From Serratia nematodiphila DZ0503SBS1 (lineage in GTDB: Bacteria > Pseudomonadota > Gammaproteobacteria > Enterobacterales > Enterobacteriaceae), in contig NZ_JPUX01000001.1 of the NCBI RefSeq assembly GCF_000738675.1, positions 3,906,001 through 3,970,000 of the forward strand: a stretch of DNA of 64,000 bases, written 5' to 3'. Under the pieces are notes generated by a model that searched no databases, was not told the DNA's origin, and saw nothing but the letters and a program-made list of their open reading frames with translations. The position numbers and the translations under genes are program-made. Of this stretch, positions 359 through 62,202 are shown one piece after another; the stretch's first letter is position 1, and each line of letters starts with the position of its first letter.

Positions 359-1450
359 ATGTTATCGCGTATCGTCTGGATGCTGGCGACGTGGCTGCTT
401 TTCTGCCAGGTCGCGCACGCGGAAATTCACCTCACCGACGTTGAAGGACGCCAGGTTACCCTGGCCGCCCCCGCACAGCGCGCCTATATCGGCTTTTACT
501 ACGAAGATTTTCTGGCGGTGAACGGCCCGGAGAGTTATCAACAGGTCGTCGCCTTCTCCAAAAGCGACTGGGCGTTGCGTGCCAGCCAATGGGCGCGCTA
601 TCAGGCGGCGCTGCCACGGCTCGCTCAGCTGGTCGATGTCGGTTCGCTCTATAACCAGAGCTTCGATTTTGAACGCCTGCTGACCACGCGGCCAGATCTG
701 CTGATCCTGGCGAAGTGGCAGCTCGACGGCTTCGCCAACTTCCTGCCGGTGCTGCAACGGCTCAACATTCCTTACATCGTCGTCGACTTCAATCAGGGCG
801 TTGAAGTCAAGCTCGCCAGCATCCGGTTGATGGGCCAGGCGATGGGCCACGCCGAGCGAGCGGAACGGCTGGCCGACGAATATCGCCAAAGCCTCGAGGA
901 TACCCGGCGGCGCATCCGCCAGGCGCAGCTGCCGCCGCCGGTCACCTACATTGAGCTGGGGGACAAGGGCCCCGGCGAGTACGGCAGCAGCTATGGCGCA
1001 TCGATCTGGGGGCCGCTGCTGCAGCTGGCCGGCGCCGACAATATCGCCGCCGGCGTCGTCGGCAGCCCTTCCCCCTTGCGCGCCGACTATGTCCTGACCC
1101 AACGGCCCGAGGTGATTTTTCTCGCCGGTGGCGACTGGGAAAACATGCCGAACGCCGTGCCGATGGGCTACGGCACGCAGGCAGCCCCCCTACAGACGCG
1201 CCTGACGCAATACGCCCGGCGGGCGGGATGGCCGCAGCTGCCGGCGGTAAAAAATCAGCGTCTTTATGCGCTTTACCATGGCGGCGCGCGCACGATATAC
1301 GACTTTATTTTTGTCCAGTATCTGGCGAAAGCGCTCTATCCCGCCGCGTTTGCCGATGTTGATCCCGCGCGCAATCTGGCGCAGTTCTACCATCAATATT
1401 TGCCGATAGAGGCGGACGGCGTCTTCTTGCAACGCTGGCAAGGAGAATAA
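359..1450 (+). CDS. Periplasmic metal-metallophore binding protein (FecB/FhuD-like)
   Basis: A 363-residue ABC importer substrate-binding protein with a signal peptide ending near VAHA before EIHLTD. The start at 359 is preferred because AAAGGGA lies about 8 bp upstream; ATG at 350 in the same frame is too close to that site. The body has the class III binding-protein layout (an early VDVGSLYNQSFDFERLLTTRPDLLI block, a long linking helix rich in Glu/Arg, and a C-terminal lobe) used for siderophores, haem and cobalamin. As first gene of an operon with CntL and CntM homologues it most likely captures the metal-loaded opine in the periplasm. No outer-membrane TonB receptor is encoded nearby. Substrate assignment is inference. 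Confidence 0.75.
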   Translation: MLSRIVWMLATWLLFCQVAHAEIHLTDVEGRQVTLAAPAQRAYIGFYYEDFLAVNGPESYQQVVAFSKSDWALRASQWARYQAALPRLAQLVDVGSLYNQSFDFERLLTTRPDLLILAKWQLDGFANFLPVLQRLNIPYIVVDFNQGVEVKLASIRLMGQAMGHAERAERLADEYRQSLEDTRRRIRQAQLPPPVTYIELGDKGPGEYGSSYGASIWGPLLQLAGADNIAAGVVGSPSPLRADYVLTQRPEVIFLAGGDWENMPNAVPMGYGTQAAPLQTRLTQYARRAGWPQLPAVKNQRLYALYHGGARTIYDFIFVQYLAKALYPAAFADVDPARNLAQFYHQYLPIEADGVFLQRWQGE

Positions 1451-1452
1451 CC

Positions 1453-2493
1453 GTGGCCCACACAGGACGTGCGTTTTTGCGACGGCGCAGGCTGCGCCGC
1501 GGGCTATTGACGCTGGCGCTGCTCGGCGCGCTGCTGGCGGCGACCGCCATCGACCTCACCGTCAGCGCCGCGCAACTTGGCCTCACGGATATCGTGCGGA
1601 TGCTTTGGCCTGGCTCTGCGCCTGGCAACGAGCTGCATCAGGTGGTTTTCTGGTCGATTCGCTTGCCGATGACGCTCACCGCCCTGGTGGTCGGCGCCAG
1701 CCTGGCGCTGGCGGGCCTGCTGATGCAGACCGTGCTGGCCAATCCCCTCGCCAGCCCCTATACGCTGGGGATCTCTGCCGCGGCGGGGTTCGGCGCGGCG
1801 CTGGCGATCCTCACCGGCTTCAGCCTGGGCGGCGCGTTGGCGCTGGGCACGCCGCTGCTGGCTTCGCTGATGGCGTTGCTCGCCTGCGTGCCTGTCTATC
1901 TGCTGGGACAACGCCGCGGCATGACGCCGCAAATATTGGTGTTGAGCGGCATCGTGGTGCTGTTTTTCTTTCAGTCGCTGCAATCGCTGCTGCTGTTTCT
2001 GGCCTCGCCGGAAGCCATGCAGCAAATTGTCTTTTGGCTGTTTGGCAGTCTGCTCAAAGCCAATATGCACGGCGTGGCGATCACCGGCGTCGTGTTGCTG
2101 TGCGCGCTGTTCGTCAGTCTGCGGCTCGCCTGGCGGCTGACGGCGCTGTCCGCCGGCGAAGAGCAGGCCCAGGGGCTGGGCATCAATGTCAGCGCCTTGC
2201 GCAAGCTGGCCTTTCTGCTGGCGACCTTGCTGACGGCCGCCTCGGTCTCGTTTGTCGGCACCATCGGGTTCGTCGGGCTGATCGCCCCGCATTTCGCCCG
2301 CTTTCTGGTGGGTGAGGATCAGCGCTACCTGATCTGCATTTCCGCCCTCTGCGGCAGCCTGCTGCTGCTGTGCGCCTCGATCGTCGCCAAGCTGGTGATG
2401 CCGAACGGCGTGGTGCCCATCGGCATCGTTATCGCCCTGATCGGCGTACCGGTGCTGTTTTACTTCGTCACTCGACAGGTTAAACGCCCATGA
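1453..2493 (+). CDS. FecCD-family ABC permease
   Basis: A 346-residue inner-membrane permease of the FecCD/BtuC type, with about ten hydrophobic segments and the family stretch RLPMTLTALVVGASLALAG followed by NPLASPYTLGIS. It starts with GTG two bases after the preceding stop. The gene overlaps the ATPase by 4 bp (ATGA), so the two should be translationally coupled. It would form the membrane channel that carries metal-metallophore complex from the binding protein into the cytoplasm. The family is secure; the substrate is inferred from the operon. Confidence 0.85.
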   Translation: MAHTGRAFLRRRRLRRGLLTLALLGALLAATAIDLTVSAAQLGLTDIVRMLWPGSAPGNELHQVVFWSIRLPMTLTALVVGASLALAGLLMQTVLANPLASPYTLGISAAAGFGAALAILTGFSLGGALALGTPLLASLMALLACVPVYLLGQRRGMTPQILVLSGIVVLFFFQSLQSLLLFLASPEAMQQIVFWLFGSLLKANMHGVAITGVVLLCALFVSLRLAWRLTALSAGEEQAQGLGINVSALRKLAFLLATLLTAASVSFVGTIGFVGLIAPHFARFLVGEDQRYLICISALCGSLLLLCASIVAKLVMPNGVVPIGIVIALIGVPVLFYFVTRQVKRP

Positions 2494-3275
2494 CTCAACT
2501 GACCCTCGCCCGCGTCGGCGTCTCGCTGCATCGCCGCTCGCTATTGGCAGACGTTTCATTGAGCTGGCCGGAGGCGCAGCTCGGCGGCATCATCGGCCCC
2601 AACGGCGCCGGCAAATCGACGCTGCTCAAAGCGATTAACCGCATGGTGCCATGCAGCGGCGAGATCGCTTACCGCGAACGCCCTCTCGATCCGAAAACCA
2701 GCCGTATCGCCTATGTGCCGCAGCTTAATCGCTGCGATTCGGCATTGACCGCTTTTGACATGGTGCTGCTGGGCAAGGTACGCCAGTTGAGCTGGCGCGT
2801 CAGCGCCGCCCAGGCCGATGCGGTCGAGCAGGCGCTTACGGAATGCGGCATTTCCGCGCTCGCCGATCGCCCCTTCAACCGTCTCAGCGGCGGGCAGCGG
2901 CAGTTGGTGATGCTGGCTCAGGCCTTCGTCTCTCAGCCGCAGATCATTTTGCTCGACGAACCCACCAGCGCGCTGGATATCCACCACCAGCTGCGCGTGC
3001 TCAATCAGATCGCCGACTATGGCCGGCGTCACCGCTGCATCACGCTGTTGGTGATCCACGATCTGGGATTGGCGCTGCGCTATTGCCACTCACTCACGCT
3101 GCTCGCGCACGGACGCGTCGTTTGCCACGGCGATACCCATCAGATGATGGGACATCCGATGGTGTCTCGCGTATTTGGCGTCGGCATCGAAAACGGCGTC
3201 AGCCCGCAGGGCTACCCCTATCTGCTGCCGACACAGCTGTTACACGCACACGGAGAATCCCCATGTACACTCTGA
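2490..3275 (+). CDS. ABC transporter ATPase for metallophore uptake
   Basis: A 261-residue ATPase of the FecE/BtuD class. Walker A GPNGAGKST is at residues 36-44, the Q-loop near 78, signature LSGGQRQ at 132-138, Walker B IILLDEP around 152-158 and the switch His near 190. All catalytic motifs are intact. It overlaps the permease gene by 4 bp, and its 3' end overlaps the CntL-like gene by 13 bp, so importer and biosynthesis genes belong to one transcript. It energises uptake of the presumed metal-opine complex. Confidence 0.85.
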   Translation: MTQLTLARVGVSLHRRSLLADVSLSWPEAQLGGIIGPNGAGKSTLLKAINRMVPCSGEIAYRERPLDPKTSRIAYVPQLNRCDSALTAFDMVLLGKVRQLSWRVSAAQADAVEQALTECGISALADRPFNRLSGGQRQLVMLAQAFVSQPQIILLDEPTSALDIHHQLRVLNQIADYGRRHRCITLLVIHDLGLALRYCHSLTLLAHGRVVCHGDTHQMMGHPMVSRVFGVGIENGVSPQGYPYLLPTQLLHAHGESPCTL

Positions 3276-4060
3276 CCAAGGCGGACATGCTGGCGCAACT
3301 CGCCGGCTTGCAACAGGAAATTCACCAGCTACACCGCTCCGCCCGGCAAGATCGGCGCCATTTTTCCCTGCTGGAACGCCGTTTCAGCCGCCTGCAAGCC
3401 TTTAACGACGAACCACAGCTGCAGGCCTACCGTCGAAAACTGGAAAACGACCGTTTGATAACGGCGCAGATCGCCCAACTGCGGGCGACAGCCAACGCCG
3501 CGTTGTGCGACTACGAGAAACATCGCGTCTCGGCGCTGTGCCGGGAACCGGCGCAAACCAACGCCTACCTGAACAGTTTCGACCGCGCGCTGCAGCTGGA
3601 GATCGCGGCCGCCGACATTAAACCCGGCGAACGGGTGCTGCTGGTGGGCAGCGGCGCATTGCCCACCACGGCGCTGGCGCTGGTCGCCAGGCTCTCCGCC
3701 ACCGTCATTTGCTACGATTGCGATCCGGGGGCCCAGCGTTTTGCCCGCCGGCTCACGCGCCACCTGGGGCTGGTGCAGCAGATGCCCTGCATCGACAAGC
3801 TGAACGGCCTGACGCGAAACGATATCGATCACATCATCATCGCCTCCCTGGTGGCGGACAAGCAGGGTTTGCTGAAGGCGCTGCGGCCTTTGCTGCCCCA
3901 GTGCGGCAAATTGCTGGTGCGCTATGGCAACGGCCTCAAGTCGATCTTCAACTGCCCTTACCACCACCAGGCCGCCGGCTCGCCCTGGCGCGTCAGCGGT
4001 AAACCGCTCGCCACCCCGCTGTACGATCTGTTGATTTTGGAGCCCCACCGCCATGAATAA
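3263..4060 (+). CDS. cntL: Nicotianamine synthase-like metallophore synthase
   Basis: A 265-residue protein resembling bacterial CntL. It carries the VGSGALP SAM-binding motif (about 118-124), the counterpart of VGSGPLPLT in plant nicotianamine synthase, and an N-terminal helical region. CntL enzymes transfer an aminobutyrate unit from S-adenosylmethionine to an amino acid (histidine in staphylopine and pseudopaline) and release methylthioadenosine. ATG at 3263 follows GGAGAATCCCC and begins inside the ATPase gene; longer frames upstream are shadow of that gene. It is followed with an 8-bp overlap by the opine dehydrogenase. Which amino acid it uses cannot be read from the sequence. Confidence 0.8.
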   Translation: MYTLTKADMLAQLAGLQQEIHQLHRSARQDRRHFSLLERRFSRLQAFNDEPQLQAYRRKLENDRLITAQIAQLRATANAALCDYEKHRVSALCREPAQTNAYLNSFDRALQLEIAAADIKPGERVLLVGSGALPTTALALVARLSATVICYDCDPGAQRFARRLTRHLGLVQQMPCIDKLNGLTRNDIDHIIIASLVADKQGLLKALRPLLPQCGKLLVRYGNGLKSIFNCPYHHQAAGSPWRVSGKPLATPLYDLLILEPHRHE

Positions 4061-5360
4061 TGCCTTTCCCACCCTGATCCTCGGCGCCGGCCCGGCGGCG
4101 ATCCAACTGGCTGCGGACATCAAGGCCGCGGCCAATGCGCGCATCGGCCTGTACAACCGCCCCAGCGAAAAAGGGCGCCGCCTGAAGCAACATCTGGCGC
4201 ACACGCCCAGCCTGTGGCTGACGGGCGCCGGTAAGGCGCAGCGCACCCAAGACGATGCGCAGGTGACGATTGATCGCTATTACGATGATCTGTCACTGGT
4301 CGGCGGCGCCTGGCGCAGACTGATCCTTGCCGTCCCCGCCGATCAATACCATGACGTGCTGCGACAGGTGCCATGGGCGGCGTTGCCCCAACTGCGCTCA
4401 CTGATCCTGCTCTCTCCCTCCATCGGCTCCGGCCTGATGGCGCAAAGCCTGCTGCAGGACGCCGGACAATCCCACGTCGAGGTCATCAGCCTGTCGAGCT
4501 ACTACGCCGATACCAAGTACCAGAACGCCGAGCAGCCTTACCGCGCCTACACCAAGGCGTTCAAGCAGCGGATTTATCTGGCCGGTGCAGGCGCAAGGTC
4601 AGACTGCGCCGAACTCGACTGGCTTTGCTCGCTGCTGGCGCGTCACGGCATTGACGCCCAACGCGGCGACAGCCTGCTCGCCGCCGAGCGCTTCAGCATC
4701 ACCAATTATGTTCATCCTCCGCTGGCACTGGCCGATACCACGCTGCAGGCGATATTCCAGCCGCAGGGGCCGATCCAGTACCTGTATAAAACCCACCCCG
4801 AGGGCCCCATCTGTCCCGAGGCGATCGCCGACATGCTGGCGCTCTCGCAGGATTACCAGCAGTTGCTCAACCGGCTCGGCATCGAGGCCATTAACCTGCT
4901 GCGCTTTTTGAATGACGACAACTACCCGGTTCCGCCCCGTATGGTGAGCCGCCGCTGGATTGACCAATTCCCGCAGCTCGCGCCGACGGAGCAATGCTAT
5001 GCGCTGTTTACGCGTTATACCGCGCTGCTGGTCGACCCCTATTCCGAGCCGGACGCGCAGGGCCGCTACTATGATTTTTCCGCCGTCAGGGTCGCCCGCG
5101 TCTTCCAGGATGCCCAGGGGCGCTGGCGCCTGCCGCGCGTGCCGCAAGAGGACGTGTGCAAACTGCGCGTCCTGGTCTTGCTGGCGCAGCGGCTTGACGT
5201 CGAGATGCCCGCCGCCCAGCGTCTGTTGGCGCGCTTTCAGCAGGCGCTGCAGCGCTTCGTCACCCGGATCGGCGCCGAGCATTGCCATCCTTCGTTGCTG
5301 GACGATACCTGCGACGAGCAGGCGGACATCATTTACCGACAATGGCGGAGGCAAGCATGA
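4053..5360 (+). CDS. cntM: Opine metallophore dehydrogenase
   Basis: A 435-residue staphylopine/pseudopaline-type dehydrogenase. The N-terminal Rossmann motif LGAGPAAIQLA (about 10-20) binds NAD(P)H, and the stretch SSYYADTKY (148-156) lies where the active-site pocket is expected. CntM enzymes reductively condense the CntL product with a 2-oxo acid (pyruvate for staphylopine and yersinopine, 2-oxoglutarate for pseudopaline), giving the finished opine metallophore. The length is typical. The 5' end overlaps cntL by 8 bp and the 3' end overlaps the exporter by 4 bp. The 2-oxo acid used here is undetermined. Confidence 0.82.
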   Translation: MNNAFPTLILGAGPAAIQLAADIKAAANARIGLYNRPSEKGRRLKQHLAHTPSLWLTGAGKAQRTQDDAQVTIDRYYDDLSLVGGAWRRLILAVPADQYHDVLRQVPWAALPQLRSLILLSPSIGSGLMAQSLLQDAGQSHVEVISLSSYYADTKYQNAEQPYRAYTKAFKQRIYLAGAGARSDCAELDWLCSLLARHGIDAQRGDSLLAAERFSITNYVHPPLALADTTLQAIFQPQGPIQYLYKTHPEGPICPEAIADMLALSQDYQQLLNRLGIEAINLLRFLNDDNYPVPPRMVSRRWIDQFPQLAPTEQCYALFTRYTALLVDPYSEPDAQGRYYDFSAVRVARVFQDAQGRWRLPRVPQEDVCKLRVLVLLAQRLDVEMPAAQRLLARFQQALQRFVTRIGAEHCHPSLLDDTCDEQADIIYRQWRRQA

Positions 5361-6202
5361 ATCAGGGTGCGTTACTGGCCATTTTTGCCTCGTTGATTTT
5401 CAGCGTCATGAACGCGCTGGTTAAAACCATCTCCGATGCTATTCCCACCGGTGAAATCGTGTTCTTTCGCAGCAGCATCGGCTGTCTGCTGGTTCTGCTG
5501 CTGATGTACCGCCACCGCATCGCCTTCAGCCGCGCAGACCGGCCGCTGCTGGTGTTGCGCGGCACCATGGGCGGGCTGTATCTCATTTGTTATTTTTACA
5601 GCATCGCCCATCTGACGCTGGCCGACGCCAGCATGCTGGCCTATCTGTCGCCGTTTTTCTCCATTTTGCTCTCCTTGCTGGTGCTGCGTGAACGGGTCAA
5701 CGCCAATACCGCATTTTGGCTGGCGATGGTCATCATCGGCGCCGTGCTGCTGGTGCGGCCGTGGCACTTCTCGGCCTATACCCTGGCGTCGCTGGTCGGC
5801 GTGATGAGCGCGGTGTTCGCCTCGATCGCCTATCTGTCGGTCAACAAACTCAGCAAGCGCCACCATAACTACGAGATCGTGTTCTATTTCCTGTTCATCG
5901 CAACGCTGATCTCGCTGCCGCTGATGTGGAACGCATTCGTTTGGCCCAACGCCTATCAGTTCGCCATTCTGCTCGCCATCGCCCTGGTGTCGCTGTTGGG
6001 GCAGGTCGTCTTAACCCAGGCCTTTTCTTCCGATAACCTGATCGTGGTCTCGGTGGTGCGCTATATCGGCATCGTGTTCAACATCGCCTGGGGTTGGCTG
6101 TTCTGGCATGAGATCCCGCTGCTGCTGTCGCTGTTCGGCTGCCTGCTGGTGGTGGTTTCCTGCATTCAGCTCGGGCTGCGTCACCGCAAGAAACCGGCTT
6201 AA
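5357..6202 (+). CDS. cntI: EamA-family exporter, probably for the metallophore
   Basis: A 281-residue inner-membrane protein with about ten hydrophobic segments and two EamA repeats (roughly 5-135 and 145-275). The ATG at 5357 is preceded by GGCGGAGGCAAGC and overlaps the cntM stop. Pseudomonas aeruginosa CntI, which exports pseudopaline, is an EamA protein in the same position after cntM, so export of the finished opine is the best guess. It is the last gene before a strong terminator. The family is sure; the substrate is inferred from context. Confidence 0.7.
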   Translation: MNQGALLAIFASLIFSVMNALVKTISDAIPTGEIVFFRSSIGCLLVLLLMYRHRIAFSRADRPLLVLRGTMGGLYLICYFYSIAHLTLADASMLAYLSPFFSILLSLLVLRERVNANTAFWLAMVIIGAVLLVRPWHFSAYTLASLVGVMSAVFASIAYLSVNKLSKRHHNYEIVFYFLFIATLISLPLMWNAFVWPNAYQFAILLAIALVSLLGQVVLTQAFSSDNLIVVSVVRYIGIVFNIAWGWLFWHEIPLLLSLFGCLLVVVSCIQLGLRHRKKPA

Positions 6203-6229
6203 GCCGGGCTTGCCGCAACCCCAAAAAAA

Positions 6230-6252
6230 ACGCACCCGAGGGTGCGTTTTTC
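6230..6252. terminator. Bidirectional terminator between metallophore operon and prc
   Basis: ACGCACCC and GGGTGCGT form an 8-bp perfect stem (6230-6247) with a two-base loop, flanked by A8 on the left and T5 on the right. It can therefore serve both the rightward operon and leftward prc. Confidence 0.85.
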
Positions 6253-6270
6253 ATCCTGCCAGACGCGGCC

Positions 6271-8319
6271 TTACTTAGCCGGCGTTGGCTGCTGAGCGGG
6301 CTGATCCTTTTCCAGATGAGCCAGGTCCAGCGCGATATGCACGGTTTCATCCAGGTACGGATCCGGTTCCTGGTAATCCTTCGGCAGATCGTCGAGCGAT
6401 TTCAGCGGCTTCTTACCCGCGCGCTCCAGACGCTCGTTGATGCGTTTCAGACGGGTCGCATCGTCATCGTGGTTCTCTTTCTCGCGCACCGCCAGATTGA
6501 GGGACACGATGTTGCGTTTATCCTTCAGCGCCTTGTAATGCGCGATATCCTGCGCGATGTACTGGAACTCCGGATTCTGCGCGATGCGCTGTTGGTGATC
6601 TTTCAGCAGTTCCGGCTCGAACGGCGCCATATCGCCGGTCTTGCTGTAGGTCGCCGCATTGATGCTGTCCCACGGCATGGCGTTGTCTTCAAACGCTTCG
6701 CCGGTTTCCGCCGGATCAACGCCGGTCGGCATCAGAATATCCGGCGTCACGCCCTTGCGCTGGGTGCTGCCGCCGTTGACGCGGTAGAACTTCTGAATGG
6801 TGTACTGCACCGAACCGAGCGCCGGCCACTCAGGGCGCAGCATCTGGTCGTAGATGCGGTTCAACGAACGGTACTGCTGCACGGTGCCTTTACCGAAGGT
6901 CGGTTCGCCGACGATCAGCGCGCGGCCGTAATCCTGCATCGCCGCCGCGAAGATCTCGGAAGCGGAGGCGCTGAAGCGATCGACCAGCACCACCAGTGGG
7001 CCTTTGTAGTAGGTCACGCCGTCGGTGTCGGCGTCTTCACGCACTTTGCCGTTGTTGTCGCGCACCTGCACCACCGGGCCGCTCGGAATGAACAGGCCGG
7101 ACAGCGACACCGCTTCAGTCAGCGCGCCGCCGCCGTTGGTGCGCAGATCGATGATCACGCTCTTGACGTTCTGCTTGGCCATCTTCTGCAGCTGCACTTT
7201 CACGTCATCGGTCAAGCCGACGTAGAAGCCAGGGATGTCGAACACCGCCACCTTCTCTTTGCCGACGGTCTTGATGGTCATTTTCACCGCGCGGTCTTCC
7301 AGGCGGATGCGCTCGCGGGTCAAGGTGACCACGCGGGTTTTGGTGCCCTTGCCGGCCGGCAGGATCTCCAGGCGCACCTTGCTGCCCTTCGGCCCTTTGA
7401 TCAGCGACACCACGTCGTCCAGACGCCAGCCGATCACGTCCACCATCGGTTTGCCGGCCTGGCCGACGCCGACGATGCGATCGCCTACGGTGATCGCCTT
7501 GCTCTTCGCCGCCGGGCCGCCCGGCACCATCGAGTTGATCAGGGTGTAGTCATCATCCATCTGCAGCACCGCGCCGATGCCTTCCAGCGACAGGCTCATC
7601 TCGGTGTTGAACTGCTCGGTATTGCGCGGAGACAGATAGTTGGTGTGCGGATCGATTTCATGCGCAAAGGCATTCATCGCCAGCTGGAAGACATCTTCGC
7701 TGTTGCTTTGCGTCAGGCGCTTGATGGCGAACTGATAGCGTTTGGTCAGCGTGTCGTGGATTTCTTTGTCGGTCTTGCCGGTCAACTTGAGGTTCAGCTC
7801 GTCATAGGTGACTTTCGCATCCCACAGGCTATCCAGCTCAGCCTTGTCTTTCGGCCACGGCGCTTTGCTGCGGTCGAGATCGATAGTGCCGTTGCCGGTA
7901 AAGTTCATCGGCTTGTCCAGCAGCGACAACGCATAGGTGTAACGCTCGAAACGACGTTTCTGCGCCAGATTGAACAGCGCGTAGAAGGTGTCCAGCTTAC
8001 CGGTTTTCAGCTCTTCGCCAACCTGATTACGTTTGCCGGCGAACTGCGCCACGTCGGCAGCCAGCAATACGTTATGGTTGTAGTCCAGCATGTTCAGGTA
8101 GCGATCGAAGATCTTGCCTGAAAACTCCGCGTCAAGGGCGAACTGGCGGTAATGAGAGCGAGTGAAGCGCGAGGTAACGCGTTCACTCACCGTAGCGTGC
8201 TGGGGTTCCTGTTGCAGTTGGGGCAGTTGGCCGATACGGATGTTGGCTGTTTCCGCGCCGTAACTGACACCCGCCCACAGCAGCCCTGCAATCGCTGTTA
8301 ATCTGACGAATTTGTTCAT
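6271..8319 (-). CDS. prc: Tail-specific periplasmic protease Prc
   Basis: A 682-residue protease, the same length as E. coli Prc. Start at MNKFVRLTAIAGLLWAG gives a signal peptide. After a helical N-terminal domain (with QHATVSERVTSRF) comes a PDZ domain (about 240-320) and the S41 protease core with SASASE near residue 450 and the catalytic Lys in FGKGTVQ about 25 residues later. Prc trims or degrades periplasmic proteins with unstructured hydrophobic C-termini, such as FtsI precursor and MepS. It lies 19 bp downstream of proQ on the same strand, as in E. coli. Confidence 0.97.
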   Translation of the reverse strand: MNKFVRLTAIAGLLWAGVSYGAETANIRIGQLPQLQQEPQHATVSERVTSRFTRSHYRQFALDAEFSGKIFDRYLNMLDYNHNVLLAADVAQFAGKRNQVGEELKTGKLDTFYALFNLAQKRRFERYTYALSLLDKPMNFTGNGTIDLDRSKAPWPKDKAELDSLWDAKVTYDELNLKLTGKTDKEIHDTLTKRYQFAIKRLTQSNSEDVFQLAMNAFAHEIDPHTNYLSPRNTEQFNTEMSLSLEGIGAVLQMDDDYTLINSMVPGGPAAKSKAITVGDRIVGVGQAGKPMVDVIGWRLDDVVSLIKGPKGSKVRLEILPAGKGTKTRVVTLTRERIRLEDRAVKMTIKTVGKEKVAVFDIPGFYVGLTDDVKVQLQKMAKQNVKSVIIDLRTNGGGALTEAVSLSGLFIPSGPVVQVRDNNGKVREDADTDGVTYYKGPLVVLVDRFSASASEIFAAAMQDYGRALIVGEPTFGKGTVQQYRSLNRIYDQMLRPEWPALGSVQYTIQKFYRVNGGSTQRKGVTPDILMPTGVDPAETGEAFEDNAMPWDSINAATYSKTGDMAPFEPELLKDHQQRIAQNPEFQYIAQDIAHYKALKDKRNIVSLNLAVREKENHDDDATRLKRINERLERAGKKPLKSLDDLPKDYQEPDPYLDETVHIALDLAHLEKDQPAQQPTPAK

Positions 8320-40436: not shown

Positions 40437-41000
40437 TTAGCAGGCTGTGATGTCCGCCCACAGAATAGCGCCGTCGGCCGTCAGCGGCCTCACCTCGCCG
40501 CTCACCGCCTGCGCCGCCCACCAGACGCCCTCGCGCGCGCTCAGTTCGCCGCCCCCCGGCAGCGACCAGACCCCGCTCAGCACATACAGCACGCCTGCCC
40601 GGTTGGGTAGCAGGGTGACGGGCGCCGTGCTGCGCCGCACCTCGGCCGCCTGCCGGCCGCGGCGCGTCATGATGTTGAAATCCTGACTGGCGTCGCCCAG
40701 CAGCGTCGCTTCCAGCGCCACGTCGCCGGAAAACGCGAACGGCTCCCCGACGCGCGCCAACTGATGGTCGATATGCCCAGCGCTGAACAGCCGCACGCCG
40801 TCGCCTTCCAGCAGGGTGATCGAACGATCGATGCCCGCAAAGGCGGAAAACGGCCCGTCCTGCGCGATGGTGGCGATGCTGGCGCGCCAGTCAAAATCCT
40901 GCGCGCCCGGCGGCCAGCTGACGATTTCGCGGGTTTCCCCACCGCCGTTGCGCCACGGGCTGACCGGCAGCGCGGCGAAGTTAAAACGGGTCAGGCTCAT
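40437..41000 (-). CDS. hutD: HutD/Ves family protein
   Basis: A 187-residue cupin-like protein with the HutD signatures SPWRNGGGETREI near the N-terminus, DFDWRASIATIAQDGPFSAFAGIDRSI, and GDVALEATLLGDASQDFNIMTRR. HutD is associated with histidine utilisation in Pseudomonas, where it is proposed to limit hut expression, possibly by binding formylglutamate. Its ATG overlaps the hutF stop (TAATG), so it is co-translated with hutF. Confidence 0.88.
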   Translation of the reverse strand: MSLTRFNFAALPVSPWRNGGGETREIVSWPPGAQDFDWRASIATIAQDGPFSAFAGIDRSITLLEGDGVRLFSAGHIDHQLARVGEPFAFSGDVALEATLLGDASQDFNIMTRRGRQAAEVRRSTAPVTLLPNRAGVLYVLSGVWSLPGGGELSAREGVWWAAQAVSGEVRPLTADGAILWADITAC

Positions 41001-42370
41001 TACGCCTCCTGCTGAAAGGTTTTCAGCACCTGCAGGAACTCGGCGCTGCTCTGCTGCTGCAGCGCGTGCCGTCCCTGCTCGATCACCTGCCGGCCGCCGA
41101 CGAATACGTCGCGAATTTGCTCTTTGCCGCCGGCGAACAGCCAGCGGTTAAGGATCGAGGCGTCCGGCGCCGCCGCCAGATACGGATCGTCGCCGTCCAG
41201 CACCAGCCAGTCGGCGCGATAGCCGCTCTGCAGCCGACCGATCGGCGCGCCGCACGCCTGCGCGCCGCCCTGCAGCGCCTGCGAGTACAGCACATCGCCC
41301 ACCGCCGACTGTTCCGGCGTCGTCAGGCGATTGCGACGCTGATCGCGCAGCCGCTGGCCGTATTCAAACCAGCGCAGCTCTTCCACCACGTCGAGCGAAA
41401 CGTGGCTGTCGGAACCGATGCCCCAACGCCCCTGCTGCTGCAGGTACGCGTCGCCGGGGAAAATACCGTCGCCGAGGTTGGCTTCGGTGGTCAAACACAG
41501 GCCGGCCACCGCACGGCTGCGCGCCAGCGCTTCCAGCTCGTCGCGATCCAGATGGGTGGCGTGCACCAGACACCAGCGCTGATCCACCGGCAGATGGTCA
41601 TACAGCCAGGCCACCGGGCGCTGCCCGCTCCACGCCAGGCAATCGTTCACCTCTTTTTGCTGCTCGGCGATATGAATATGCACCGGCAAGGTGCGATCCG
41701 ACGCGGCCAAAATCTGCTGCATCTGCCCCAGCTCCACCGCACGCAGCGAGTGGAAGCACAGCCCCTGATTCTGCAACGGGCGATCCGCCAGCTGGCGGGC
41801 AATCACCTGCTGCTGATGCAGATAGCTTTCGGTGTCCTGGATAAAACGTTTCTGCCCCGGCTGGGCCGGCTGGGCGCCGAAACCGGCGTAGCTGTACAGC
41901 ACCGGCAGCATCGTCATGCCGATGCCGGCCTGATGCGCCGCCTCGCTGAGCCGGCCGGTCATCTCACCGCGATCGGCGTAGGGCTTGCCGTCGGCGTCGT
42001 GATGCAGGTAGTGGAATTCGGCCACCTGGGTGTATCCGCCCTTGAGCATTTCGATATACAGTTGACGGGCGACCACCTCCACCTGCTCCGGCGTCAGACG
42101 CTGCACCAGGCGGTACATCAGATCGCGCCAGGTCCAGAAGCTGTCCTGCGGGTTGCCCGCCACTTCCGCCAGCCCCGCCATCGCGCGCTGGAAAGCGTGG
42201 GAGTGCAGGTTCGGCATGCCCGGCACCGCGTCGCCGTGCAGCCGGGTGCAGCCTTGCGGTTCAGCGTCGGCGGTAACTTGAGTCAGATAACCTTGCGCAT
42301 CGACGTCCAGCCGGACGTTATGCGCCCAGCCCTCAGGGAGCAAAGCGCGTGGGGCAAAATAAGCAGGCAT
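41000..42370 (-). CDS. hutF: Formimidoylglutamate deiminase
   Basis: A 456-residue amidohydrolase that deiminates N-formimidoylglutamate to N-formylglutamate and ammonia. The metal site residues are visible: GMPNLHSHAFQRAM, HIHIAEQQKEV, LVHATHLD and GIGSDSHVSLD. Start at 42370 (MPAYFAPRALLPEGW) gives normal family length; the longer frame starts within the operator region. Divergent from hutC, with the HutC-like operator in between. Together with HutG it defines the five-step route to glutamate. Confidence 0.93.
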   Translation of the reverse strand: MPAYFAPRALLPEGWAHNVRLDVDAQGYLTQVTADAEPQGCTRLHGDAVPGMPNLHSHAFQRAMAGLAEVAGNPQDSFWTWRDLMYRLVQRLTPEQVEVVARQLYIEMLKGGYTQVAEFHYLHHDADGKPYADRGEMTGRLSEAAHQAGIGMTMLPVLYSYAGFGAQPAQPGQKRFIQDTESYLHQQQVIARQLADRPLQNQGLCFHSLRAVELGQMQQILAASDRTLPVHIHIAEQQKEVNDCLAWSGQRPVAWLYDHLPVDQRWCLVHATHLDRDELEALARSRAVAGLCLTTEANLGDGIFPGDAYLQQQGRWGIGSDSHVSLDVVEELRWFEYGQRLRDQRRNRLTTPEQSAVGDVLYSQALQGGAQACGAPIGRLQSGYRADWLVLDGDDPYLAAAPDASILNRWLFAGGKEQIRDVFVGGRQVIEQGRHALQQQSSAEFLQVLKTFQQEA

Positions 42371-42474
42371 GGCAGTATTCCACGGTTGATGTAACGGTGA
42401 ATGAGGCGCGGCGATGGCGCGCATTCAGGAATTTTTGGCGGCCGCCGGCAAGTTTCTGGCGCGACGGCCACTAG

Positions 42475-42486
42475 TTGTATATACAT
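42475..42486. promoter_or_regulatory. HutC operator between hutF and hutC
   Basis: TTGTATATACAT, followed by a second overlapping ATATACATA unit. It matches the TGTATATACA core reported for HutC and the copy upstream of hutI. It sits 104 bp from the hutF start and 64 bp from hutC, suitable for controlling both. Confidence 0.7.
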
Positions 42487-42550
42487 ATACATACGCCGAC
42501 ATCAACAGTAAACTGGTGTTATTATTTTTTTATTTGACGAGGTTAACGTC

Positions 42551-43306
42551 GTGGCTGAACAACAGACCGTGTTACAACTGGCGGCTGCAATGAGCGATGC
42601 CCCCGCCCCGATCTACCAACGGGTCAAACAGGCGATCGTGAATCAAATCCGTGCGGGGCATTGGCAACCGCACCAGCGCGTGCCCTCCGAAAGTGAACTG
42701 GTGGCGGAACTGGGCGTCAGCCGCATGACCATCAACCGCGCGCTGCGCGAGCTGACCAGCGAAGGTTTTTTGATCCGCATGCAGGGCGTCGGCACCTTCG
42801 TCGCCGAAGCCAAGGCGCATACCGCACTGCTGGAAGTGCACAACATCGCCGATGAGATCGCCGCGCGCGGTCATCGCCACGGCAGTAAAATCCTCGAGCT
42901 GAAGGCCCGCCCGGCCAGCGAGGAAGAAGCGACGGCGCTGGGCATTCAGCCCGGCCAACGGCTGTTCTACTCCCAGATCGTGCATTACGAAAACGACGTG
43001 CCGGTGCAGGTGGAAGACCGCTGCGTCAACCCGCTGGTGGCGCCGGATTACCTGAAGCAGGATTTCGACCGCGTCACCCCTTACACCTACCTGACGCAGG
43101 CCGCGCCGCTGACCGCCGGCGAACACATCGTCGAAGCGGTGATCCCCACCCGGCGCGAGCGCGAGCTGCTGCAGCTGGAGGACCACGAACCCGGCCTGCT
43201 GATCCATCGCCGCACCTGGTCCGGCAAAACCGTGGTCACCTCGGCGCGGTTGCTGTACCCCGGCAGCCGCTATCAGCTGTTCGGCCGCTTCACCAGCGAA
43301 GTCTGA
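42551..43306 (+). CDS. hutC: Histidine utilisation repressor HutC
   Basis: A 251-residue GntR/HutC-family regulator. The winged helix-turn-helix (YQRVKQAIVNQIRAGHWQPHQRVPSESELVAELGVSRMTINRALREL) is followed by a UTRA effector domain (about 95-245) that binds urocanate. GTG start with GAGG 8 bp upstream. Flanked on both sides by TGTATATACA-type operators, implying autoregulation and control of hutFD and hutIG. Confidence 0.93.
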   Translation: MAEQQTVLQLAAAMSDAPAPIYQRVKQAIVNQIRAGHWQPHQRVPSESELVAELGVSRMTINRALRELTSEGFLIRMQGVGTFVAEAKAHTALLEVHNIADEIAARGHRHGSKILELKARPASEEEATALGIQPGQRLFYSQIVHYENDVPVQVEDRCVNPLVAPDYLKQDFDRVTPYTYLTQAAPLTAGEHIVEAVIPTRRERELLQLEDHEPGLLIHRRTWSGKTVVTSARLLYPGSRYQLFGRFTSEV

Positions 43307-43416
43307 ACCCCGGCGGGCGCGCCCTGCGCCCGCATCTCCGCTGTCGATCACATCCTGATAACAAAATCTCGCCCGCCTCTTGTGACATCCCGGTGAATGC
43401 GTTAGGTTGTTTTTAA

Positions 43417-43428
43417 TTGTATATACAA
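43417..43428. promoter_or_regulatory. HutC operator upstream of hutI
   Basis: TTGTATATACAA, a perfect 12-bp palindrome 36 bp before the hutI start. It implies a separate HutC-controlled promoter for hutIG. Confidence 0.75.
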
Positions 43429-43463
43429 CCATGTGGGAGCTGCGGCTCCGGCGGAGGAAAGCA

Positions 43464-44687
43464 ATGACGTCTGAGATCCACTGTGACAGCCTGTGGCACG
43501 GCGCCGATATCGTCACCATGCGCGACGGTAAATATCACACCCTGACCGACGGCGCGATCGCCGTACGCGACGGCAAGATTGTCTGGATTGGCGAACATGC
43601 GGCGCTGCCGCCCGATCTTATCGCGGACGAAACGGTGAAATTCGACGGCGGCATCATCACCCCCGGCTTTGTTGACTGCCACACGCACCTGGTGTTCGGC
43701 GGCAACCGCAGCGGCGAGTTCGAACAGCGGCTGAACGGCGTAAGCTACGCCGACATCGCCGCGCAGGGCGGCGGCATCATCTCCACCGTGAAAGCCACCC
43801 GCGAGGCCGACGAAGAGTTGCTGCTGGAGCAGGCGCTGTTCCGCCTGCGGCCGCTGCTGGCGGAAGGCGTCACCTGCGTGGAGATCAAATCCGGCTATGG
43901 CCTCAGCCCGGAGAGCGAACTGAAAATGCTGCGGGTGGCGCGCAAGTTGGGCGAGCTGCTGCCGGTCGAGGTGAAAACCACCTGTCTGGCGGCCCATGCG
44001 CTGCCGCCGGAATACGCCAACCGCGCCGACGACTACATCAATCTGGTCTGCGACACCATCATCCCGCAGGCGGCGGCCGCCGGTCTGGCGGATGCGGTCG
44101 ACGCCTTCTGCGAGCATCTGGCGTTCTCACCGGCGCAGGTGGAGCGCGTCTTCGCCGCCGCCGAAGCCGCCGGTCTGCCGGTCAAACTGCACGCCGAACA
44201 GCTCTCCGCCCTCGGCGGCAGCACGCTGGCGGCGCGCCATCACGCGCTCTCCGCCGACCATCTCGAATACGCTACCGAGCAAGACGCCCGCGCCATGGGC
44301 GACGCCGGCACCGTGGCGGTGCTGCTGCCGGGCGCTTACTACCTGCTGCGTGAAACCCAATGCCCGCCGGTAGCGCTGTTCCGCAAACACCACGTGGCGA
44401 TGGCGATCGCCAGCGACGCCAACCCCGGCACGTCGCCGGCGCTGTCGCTGCGCCTGATGATCAACATGGCCTGCACGCTGTTCCGCCTGACGCCGGAAGA
44501 GGCGCTCGCGGGCGTCACCACCCACGCCGCCAAAGCGCTGGGGCTGCAGCACAGCCACGGCACGCTGGAAACCGGAAAGGTGGCGGACTTCGTTCACTGG
44601 CCGCTGTCGCGGCCGGCGGAACTGGCTTATTGGTTGGGCGGCCAGCTGCCCTGTACGGTGATTTTCCGAGGAGAAGTACGTCAATGA
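43464..44687 (+). CDS. hutI: Imidazolonepropionase
   Basis: A 407-residue amidohydrolase that opens 4-imidazolone-5-propionate to formimidoylglutamate. Metal ligands: [13 protein letters not shown], the His of KLHAEQ and the Asp of [11 protein letters not shown] at 43464 follows GGAGGAAAGCA, and the upstream extension is rejected because it would read through the operator. Overlaps hutG by 4 bp. hutU and hutH, needed for the first two steps, are not in the window. Confidence 0.95.
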
Positions 44688-60950: not shown

Positions 60951-61568
60951 ATGATCGATATGTCCGCCGTACTCGCCGTTTTCACCGTGTATATTGTCGG
61001 CGTGGTGATCCCCGGCCCCAATTTCGTCGCTGTCGCTCACAAAGCCGTTTCAGCACGCCGGACAGAGGCGTTTGCCTTGGTGGCCGGCATCGTGCTGGTC
61101 AATCTGTTCTGGGCGAGCAGCGCCCTTCTTGGCATCGGCGTGGTTTTCGCCCTGTTCCCCTGGTTGGCTATGGCGATTAAAATCGCCGGCGCCGGCTATT
61201 TAATGTGGTTCGGCTATCGGCTTATCGCCCAGGCGGCGCCCTCTTCCGGCACCCCTGCGGCCACCGGAAAAAGCGGTTTTCGCGCCGCCTTTCTACAGGG
61301 TATTGCCACCAACATCGCCAACCCCAAATCCATTGCGTTTTACGCCGCCGTCTTCTCATCAGCGGCGCCCAGCCATGTTTCTACACCGACTTTCCTCGCC
61401 ATGCTGCTGGAGGTCGCGGTGATAGCCAGCTTGTGGTACGGGCTGGTGGCGCTGGTATTGTCGCACGCGCCTGTCGCCGGCGCCTACCGCCGCAGCAAGG
61501 CTTGGATCGATCGCGCCTGCGGCACCTTGATCATCGCACTGGGACTGCGGCAGTTACTCAGCCGATGA
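60951..61568 (+). CDS. LysE/RhtB-family exporter
   Basis: A 205-residue inner-membrane amino-acid exporter with about six hydrophobic segments. Family motifs: VVIPGPNFVAVAHKAVSARRTEAFALVAGI near the N-terminus and FLQGIATNIANPKSIAFYAAVFSS in the middle. The substrate is unknown. Its last 11 bases overlap the convergent qnr gene, so the two transcripts overlap at their 3' ends. Confidence 0.88.
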   Translation: MIDMSAVLAVFTVYIVGVVIPGPNFVAVAHKAVSARRTEAFALVAGIVLVNLFWASSALLGIGVVFALFPWLAMAIKIAGAGYLMWFGYRLIAQAAPSSGTPAATGKSGFRAAFLQGIATNIANPKSIAFYAAVFSSAAPSHVSTPTFLAMLLEVAVIASLWYGLVALVLSHAPVAGAYRRSKAWIDRACGTLIIALGLRQLLSR

Positions 61569-62202
61569 TCGCGATCCCCAGCCGCTCCAGCAGTTGAGCG
61601 GCCTGGTGACTGTCCATTTTAACGCCCTGCAGAGCGGTGGTGCGTAAATCCAACTCGCCCAGTTCCGCGTTGCTCAAATCACATTGGGTGACATCGGCGG
61701 CGCGCCAGTCGAAACCGGAGAATTCACCGCCGGACAGATCGGAACCGCTGAAACTGGCGCCGAGCACCTGCGCCCCGTGCCAGCGGTTTTCCCACAGCTC
61801 GCATTTCTCCAGCACCACCTTGGCGAAGTTGGCATAGCTCAGGTTGCTTTTGGTGATATAGGCGCTGCAAAACCAGGTGCGGCTGGTGATCATGTTCATA
61901 AAGCTGGCGCCGCGAAAATCGGCGCCCTGCGCGCGGCATTCGCGGATCTCCACCCCCAGCGCGCTGGCATGGCGGAAATCGGCCATCGACAAATCGCAGC
62001 TTCTGAAGCTGGCGTCTTTCAGGATCGCGCGGCTGAAATTACCGCCCTGTCGGCTGTCGCGATCGTAAAACTGGCAGCCGATAAACTCGGTGCCGGTCAA
62101 ATCGGCGCCTGAAAAATCGCACAGCATAAAGCTGCCGTTTTCAATTTTTTCGCCGGTAAAGCGGTTACGGTCAATCTTTTCACCCTTCAACATCAGACTC
62201 AT
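61558..62202 (-). CDS. qnr: Qnr pentapeptide-repeat protein (Smaqnr type)
   Basis: A 214-residue right-handed quadrilateral beta-helix made of pentapeptide repeats (for example DFSGADLTGTEF, CDLSMADFRHASALG, SDLSGGEFSGFDW). It has the Qnr features: a first block interrupted by the YDRDSRQGG loop region, the single Gly hinge, and a C-terminal dimerisation helix (SHQAAQLLERLGIAIIG). It resembles the chromosomal Serratia Qnr and QnrB. Qnr proteins shield DNA gyrase from quinolones. A LexA box lies 11 bp upstream. Confidence 0.92.
   Translation of the reverse strand: MSLMLKGEKIDRNRFTGEKIENGSFMLCDFSGADLTGTEFIGCQFYDRDSRQGGNFSRAILKDASFRSCDLSMADFRHASALGVEIRECRAQGADFRGASFMNMITSRTWFCSAYITKSNLSYANFAKVVLEKCELWENRWHGAQVLGASFSGSDLSGGEFSGFDWRAADVTQCDLSNAELGELDLRTTALQGVKMDSHQAAQLLERLGIAIIG

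Follow-up and report, generated by a model that had tools for sequence, protein, structure and literature searches.

The described systems closest to the locus considered here are the opine zincophore clusters of Yersinia, Pseudomonas aeruginosa and Staphylococcus aureus, and passages of a 2020 zincophore survey (PMC7438024) give rules by which the product of such a cluster may be predicted. An aspartate at position 150 of the opine dehydrogenase CntM goes with use of pyruvate and an alanine with use of 2-oxoglutarate, and a cluster that lacks a histidine racemase goes with use of L-histidine. The same passages describe a type of cluster with no racemase, an EamA exporter and a FecCD importer, report that the FecCD system of Y. 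pestis is truncated or frameshifted, and name Serratia marcescens among the pathogens in the survey's network. Genome mining has also touched the genus: an antiSMASH 'opine-like-metallophore' cluster, with yersinopine as the most similar known cluster at 100%, is recorded for Serratia sp. BRL41 in a section of PMC10651056, and an antiSMASH-based listing of yersinopine appears for S. sarumanii in a section of PMC12127232. Here we describe a six-gene operon of this kind in Serratia nematodiphila DZ0503SBS1, at positions 359-6202 (+ strand) of a stretch of 64,000 nucleotides (positions 3,906,001 to 3,970,000 of contig NZ_JPUX01000001.1; hereafter the window). We consider it highly probable that this is a Zur-controlled zincophore operon of the yersinopine type, whose product is yersinopine or a very similar compound.

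The operon, all on the + strand, opens with three importer genes, which encode a periplasmic binding protein (359-1450; Pfam Peripla_BP_2, 65.1 bits against a cut-off of 27.5), an inner-membrane permease of the FecCD family, 346 amino acids long and in a single open frame (1453-2493; FecCD, 286.5 against 26.5), and an ATP-binding cassette (ABC) ATPase (2490-3275; ABC_tran, 102.9 against 25). Two adjacent enzyme genes follow, one for a CntL-type, nicotianamine-synthase-like aminobutyrate transferase of 265 amino acids (3263-4060; NAS, the nicotianamine synthase family, 30.1 against 27.1) and one for a CntM-type opine dehydrogenase of 435 amino acids (4053-5360; Staph_opine_DH, 541 against 25), and the last gene encodes an exporter of the EamA/DMT family with 281 amino acids (5357-6202; EamA, 95.6 against 28.2). 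The initial annotation had read six overlapping genes here. The six genes are in place, but only four of the five junctions overlap, by 4, 13, 8 and 4 nucleotides, the binding protein and permease genes being separated by a gap of 2 nucleotides. For the binding protein we prefer the start at ATG 359 over an in-frame ATG at 350, because AAAGGG then lies at a normal spacing.

These assignments bear out the earlier reading of a Yersinia-type operon for an opine metallophore, with a FecCD importer and an EamA exporter and with any outer-membrane receptor gene lying outside the operon, as none is found among the six genes. In NCBIfam the sole models matched by the two enzymes were CntL and staphylopine dehydrogenase, both at scores under the staphylopine-specific cut-offs (81.9 of 350 and 301.3 of 675, respectively), as would be expected of relatives of the S. 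aureus enzymes rather than of those enzymes themselves. The CntL-type protein also matches S. aureus CntL structures, with an E-value of about 1e-17. That it might be an ordinary methyltransferase, an alternative raised along with the initial proposal of a CntL homologue, was ruled out: at E <=0.001, NAS was its only Pfam match and CntL its only NCBIfam match, and the proposal stands.

The prediction of the product turns on CntM. Its best solved relative is the yersinopine dehydrogenase 6c4l (653 bits), followed by the pseudopaline (348) and staphylopine (219) dehydrogenases, and it shares 306 of 434 positions, about 70%, with the crystallised yersinopine enzyme. The residue at the 2-oxo-acid selectivity position is Asp153 (codon 4509-4511), which aligns with Asp150 of S. 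aureus CntM. Aspartate occupies this position in all nine close relatives, namely the window's enzyme, those of seven other Serratia and that of Arsenophonus, and alanine occupies it in all three distant relatives examined, from Vibrio, Photobacterium and Paenibacillus. No histidine racemase was found with Pfam among the six operon genes. Under the published rules, Asp153 and the lack of a racemase in the operon together predict yersinopine, built from L-histidine, aminobutyrate and pyruvate, and the same two features argue against the suggestion of the initial annotation that the compound is likely uncharacterised and could combine a new pair of amino acid and 2-oxo acid.

The predicted mode of control turns on a Zur-box-like palindrome, TGTTACATTATAACA, which lies before the operon at 315-329 and which we identified with a degenerate-pattern scan, by its conservation and by comparison with the Zur box published for Y. 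pestis, given in a section of PMC2706843 as AATGTTATANTATAACATT. In the 5.22-Mb genome the pattern has 6 exact sites and 11 sites with at most one mismatch, against 1 in a control with the pattern read backward. The palindrome in front of the operon matches the pattern in all eight Serratia operons, six of which share identical 15 bases while two differ at the centre base, and the Arsenophonus operon has a palindrome with one mismatch to the pattern. Beside the Zur-type sites of the genome stand folE2, zinT, a dksA-like gene and a ZnuA/AztC-type importer, and also ykgM (L31, by eye), a DUF1007 gene, a second FecCD-type importer and a TonB receptor; a weaker copy was seen by eye in the znuA-znuC gap. 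A review (PMC6103462) covers control by Zur in other bacteria, where it extends to the genes for pseudopaline, to folE2 and dksA, and to TonB receptors. From its box, we predict that the operon is likewise under Zur control.

Two further observations were made with the same scan. Zur-type palindromes precede cysS and an azoreductase gene (C2:451411 and C1:3050318, C1 and C2 being contigs of the assembly), which was unexpected, as to our knowledge neither gene is an expected Zur target. The second FecCD-type importer (C2:233036-235801; L090 3036-5801), which comprises an ATPase, a binding protein and a permease, has an exact Zur-type box directly upstream, and its binding protein does not resemble the one encoded in the yersinopine-type operon.

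Several points weigh against this reading of the operon, and they concern its control as well as its product. No site resembling a sigma-70 promoter was detected by a scan of positions 200-480. The Y. pestis genes YPO1343-1348 may be the yersinopine operon, which is a guess of ours. A portion of PMC2706843 describes them as strongly Zur-repressed but without a predicted Zur site, such sites being predicted there at only four Zur-dependent genes or operons in Y. pestis. The main text of a paper on Zur in Y. pseudotuberculosis does not mention opine, metallophore or yersinopine.

As for the product, residues besides position 150 are described in passages of PMC7438024 as likely contributors to selectivity. 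About 20 residues that follow the selectivity aspartate in the crystallised Y. pestis CntM are absent from the window's enzyme, after residue 161, and the nine Serratia and Arsenophonus enzymes compared align without gaps after that residue. Judged by alignment, the pocket edge of the Serratia enzyme may therefore differ from that of the Y. pestis enzyme. Our literature searches, which covered titles and the openings of abstracts, found no Serratia chemistry, expression or enzyme data and no report of production of the compound in the genus, in keeping with the earlier remark that no product had been described from it. The last two points would also favour a novel opine, made with another amino acid, another 2-oxo acid or both, to which may be added the scores of CntM and CntL under the staphylopine-specific cut-offs. 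With Asp153 in place, with about 70% identity to yersinopine dehydrogenase, and with gene types that match the published Yersinia cluster (FecCD and EamA, without a racemase), we regard a novel opine as improbable.

The choice of L- over D-histidine by CntL is predicted from the racemase-free operon and not from a test of the pocket, which also counts against our reading. D-histidine could in principle be supplied from elsewhere in the genome, in which case a staphylopine-like product would result. The S. aureus racemase CntK belongs to the diaminopimelate (DAP) epimerase superfamily, and a whole-genome search confined to the DAP-epimerase family gave two proteins, the canonical DapF and a paralog (C2, about 199045-199920). 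The presence of this second protein, which at 221.8 bits passes the NCBIfam DapF cut-off of 114.65, speaks for such a supply. However, the paralog has serine in place of both DapF cysteines of the CGNG and ACGSG motifs, which we take to be the catalytic residues, and its gene lies away from the operon, adjoining a transporter-like open reading frame (ORF). Although the DapF model was passed, we hold D-histidine formation by this paralog to be unlikely on account of the two serines, and a staphylopine-like product, with D-histidine from the paralog or from a racemase of another family, appears very improbable. Yersinopine, or a compound much like it, is the product that we continue to favour.

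The 5.22-Mb genome, in two contigs, holds one CntM. CntM was found in 8 of the 30 Serratia genomes searched, the window's own included. A sample of 394 genomes from the order as a whole gave CntM in a single one, again the window's own. A protein database yielded 211 CntM relatives at E <=1e-20 among 8000 scored candidates; among the best 120 of these, the named ones were all Serratia. Carriers known by name are S. ureilytica, S. marcescens 106R and S. nevei. All eight CntM-positive Serratia have the six genes in unchanged order, and in all eight the operon lies between htpX (read as an M48 peptidase in the window's genome) and prc. In each of the 22 CntM-negative genomes htpX and prc are neighbours, with a spacing of 297-902 nucleotides. 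There is thus a single chromosomal insertion point in Serratia, between htpX and prc. Orthologs of the operon's binding protein, with at least 79% identity, occur in the same eight of the 30 genomes, the other matches listed being at most 38% identical, and none of the 30 has such an ortholog without CntM. No near match to the operon DNA was found with megablast in 20,395 Escherichia coli records. That the same six genes recur in the same order in seven other CntM-positive Serratia and in Arsenophonus nasoniae argues that the arrangement is not due to chance.

In A. nasoniae the operon is carried on plasmids. CntM (79.8%) is present on four plasmid records, each with CntL and an exporter annotated alongside, and the two examined (NZ_CP038619.1 and NZ_CP123565.1) are MOBP-typed, carry all six genes and have IS91-family transposase genes on both sides of the operon, some kilobases off. 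All six genes are likewise present at 1268-7138 of the Arsenophonus contig L016, where the flanking ORFs encode an integrase core and a Y2_Tnp transposase. The G+C content of the operon is 55%, whereas that of the pArsFIN7 sequence is 37% before it and 44% after it. A tree of CntM gave no firm place for Arsenophonus. Its occurrence on plasmids of an insect symbiont shows that the entire unit for making, exporting and importing the compound can travel.

Since the operon has no outer-membrane receptor of its own, we considered the receptors found elsewhere. The genome has 17 TonB-barrel genes, and a Zur-type box stands upstream of only one, C2:307719-309890, with 0 mismatches, the best windows of the other 16 having 4-7. 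Orthologs of this receptor occur in 19 of the 30 Serratia, and the box is kept in all 19, at 0-2 mismatches. All eight CntM-positive genomes carry the receptor, compared with 11 of the 22 CntM-negative ones (p 0.013 by the hypergeometric test, and 0.048 once four genomes of 1.5-3.6 Mb are set aside, in both cases uncorrected for kinship). As proof of a link this co-occurrence is too weak, given the 11 CntM-negative genomes with the receptor. We suggest that C2:307719-309890 is a candidate yersinopine receptor, identified by its box. However, it heads a Zur-boxed operon of its own (C2:304151-309890; L089 2151-7890), which also encodes a binding protein, a methyltransferase, a permease of the FecCD family and an ATPase. 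Having this importer of its own, and being present in 11 genomes that lack CntM, the receptor may take up a different zinc chelate. A search of the plasmid collection, which is where the Arsenophonus operon resides, gave no relative of the receptor at E <=1e-100. Among solved structures its closest relative is a TonB-dependent receptor, and the chains labelled CntO are matched far less strongly. Import of the zinc complex by this Zur-boxed receptor is therefore possible but, in our judgement, unlikely. In this genome assembly a frame change divides the permease gene of the receptor operon into two open frames; in all three relatives examined it is a single frame of 341-349 amino acids.

Entry through general porins, with no need of a dedicated receptor, is at least as open as the receptor route. 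Enterobacterial porins admit molecules of the size of yersinopine, and those of P. aeruginosa are tighter. In all eight Serratia no receptor gene lies within the operon or in the sequence up to htpX and prc, and none is annotated in the stretches examined of two Arsenophonus plasmids. Porin entry would explain why the operon is receptor-free, whereas that of P. aeruginosa includes a receptor. The literature matches listed for yersinopine with porin, TonB or uptake are silent on this question in their titles and abstract openings, and we would put diffusion through porins only just short of an even chance.

From the gene assignments, the biochemical steps, the transport and the metal may be inferred as follows. 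Under zinc shortage Zur would release the promoter. CntL would join the aminobutyrate part of S-adenosylmethionine to L-histidine, and CntM would use NAD(P)H to condense the resulting intermediate with pyruvate, giving yersinopine or its close likeness. The EamA protein would export this compound, which would bind Zn2+ outside the cell. The zinc complex would then cross the outer membrane by a route encoded outside the operon, either general porins or the TonB receptor C2:307719-309890, and would pass the inner membrane by way of the importer that the operon itself encodes (binding protein, FecCD permease and ATPase), whose three genes are in intact frames.

Downstream of the operon lies an inverted repeat, CGCACC-CGAG-GGTGCG, with an A run before it and a T run after it (6231-6251; found by eye), which by its form is likely a terminator shared with the convergent prc. 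A terminator scan did not report this repeat and gave one other weak site, at 6194-6207 on the - strand. Elsewhere in the window, 61558-62202 encodes a pentapeptide repeat protein of the Qnr family, which passed the general Qnr model and fell below the cut-offs of the nearest QnrB and QnrE models, and histidine-utilisation genes (HutD, HutF, HutC and HutI) lie at 40437-44687, an observation on the neighbourhood that shows no link to the operon.

This is a known system in an already known carrier, and the claim of a novel compound is unsupported. What is added is a Zur-type box, a fixed insertion point, the occurrence on plasmids and an outer-membrane question that can be put to the test. Because the importer is in intact frames within the same Serratia operon, zincophore import and the outer-membrane step become amenable to gene removal outside Y. 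pestis. The staphylopine cluster of S. aureus, as described, shares the CntL/CntM chemistry and the aspartate that marks use of pyruvate, but has a histidine racemase, a major facilitator superfamily exporter and an Opp-type importer; none of these three is among the six Serratia genes, and a staphylopine-type cluster was rejected. The pseudopaline cluster cntOLMI of P. aeruginosa resembles the Serratia operon in CntL, CntM and an EamA exporter, and in the L-histidine and Zur control predicted for the latter, and differs from it in having an outer-membrane receptor, no inner-membrane importer, the alanine and 2-oxoglutarate; with no receptor, and aspartate instead of alanine, the Serratia operon is not of that type. 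The likeness is to the yersinopine cluster of Yersinia (cluster 3 in the relevant section of PMC7438024), which is also racemase-free, with a NAS-like CntL, a CntM with Asp-150, EamA and FecCD. Two differences remain: the Serratia importer is in intact frames, whereas that of Y. pestis is reported in the same section to be truncated or frameshifted, and Serratia CntM is without the approximately 20 residues that come after the selectivity position in the Y. pestis enzyme that was crystallised. We tentatively suggest, while giving the whole somewhat less than an even chance, that Serratia holds the complete working form of a system left with a broken importer in Y. pestis, that entry is receptor-free or by a borrowed Zur-controlled receptor, and that the operon moves as a unit between insect-associated bacteria, on plasmids in A. 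nasoniae and at one fixed point in the Serratia chromosome.

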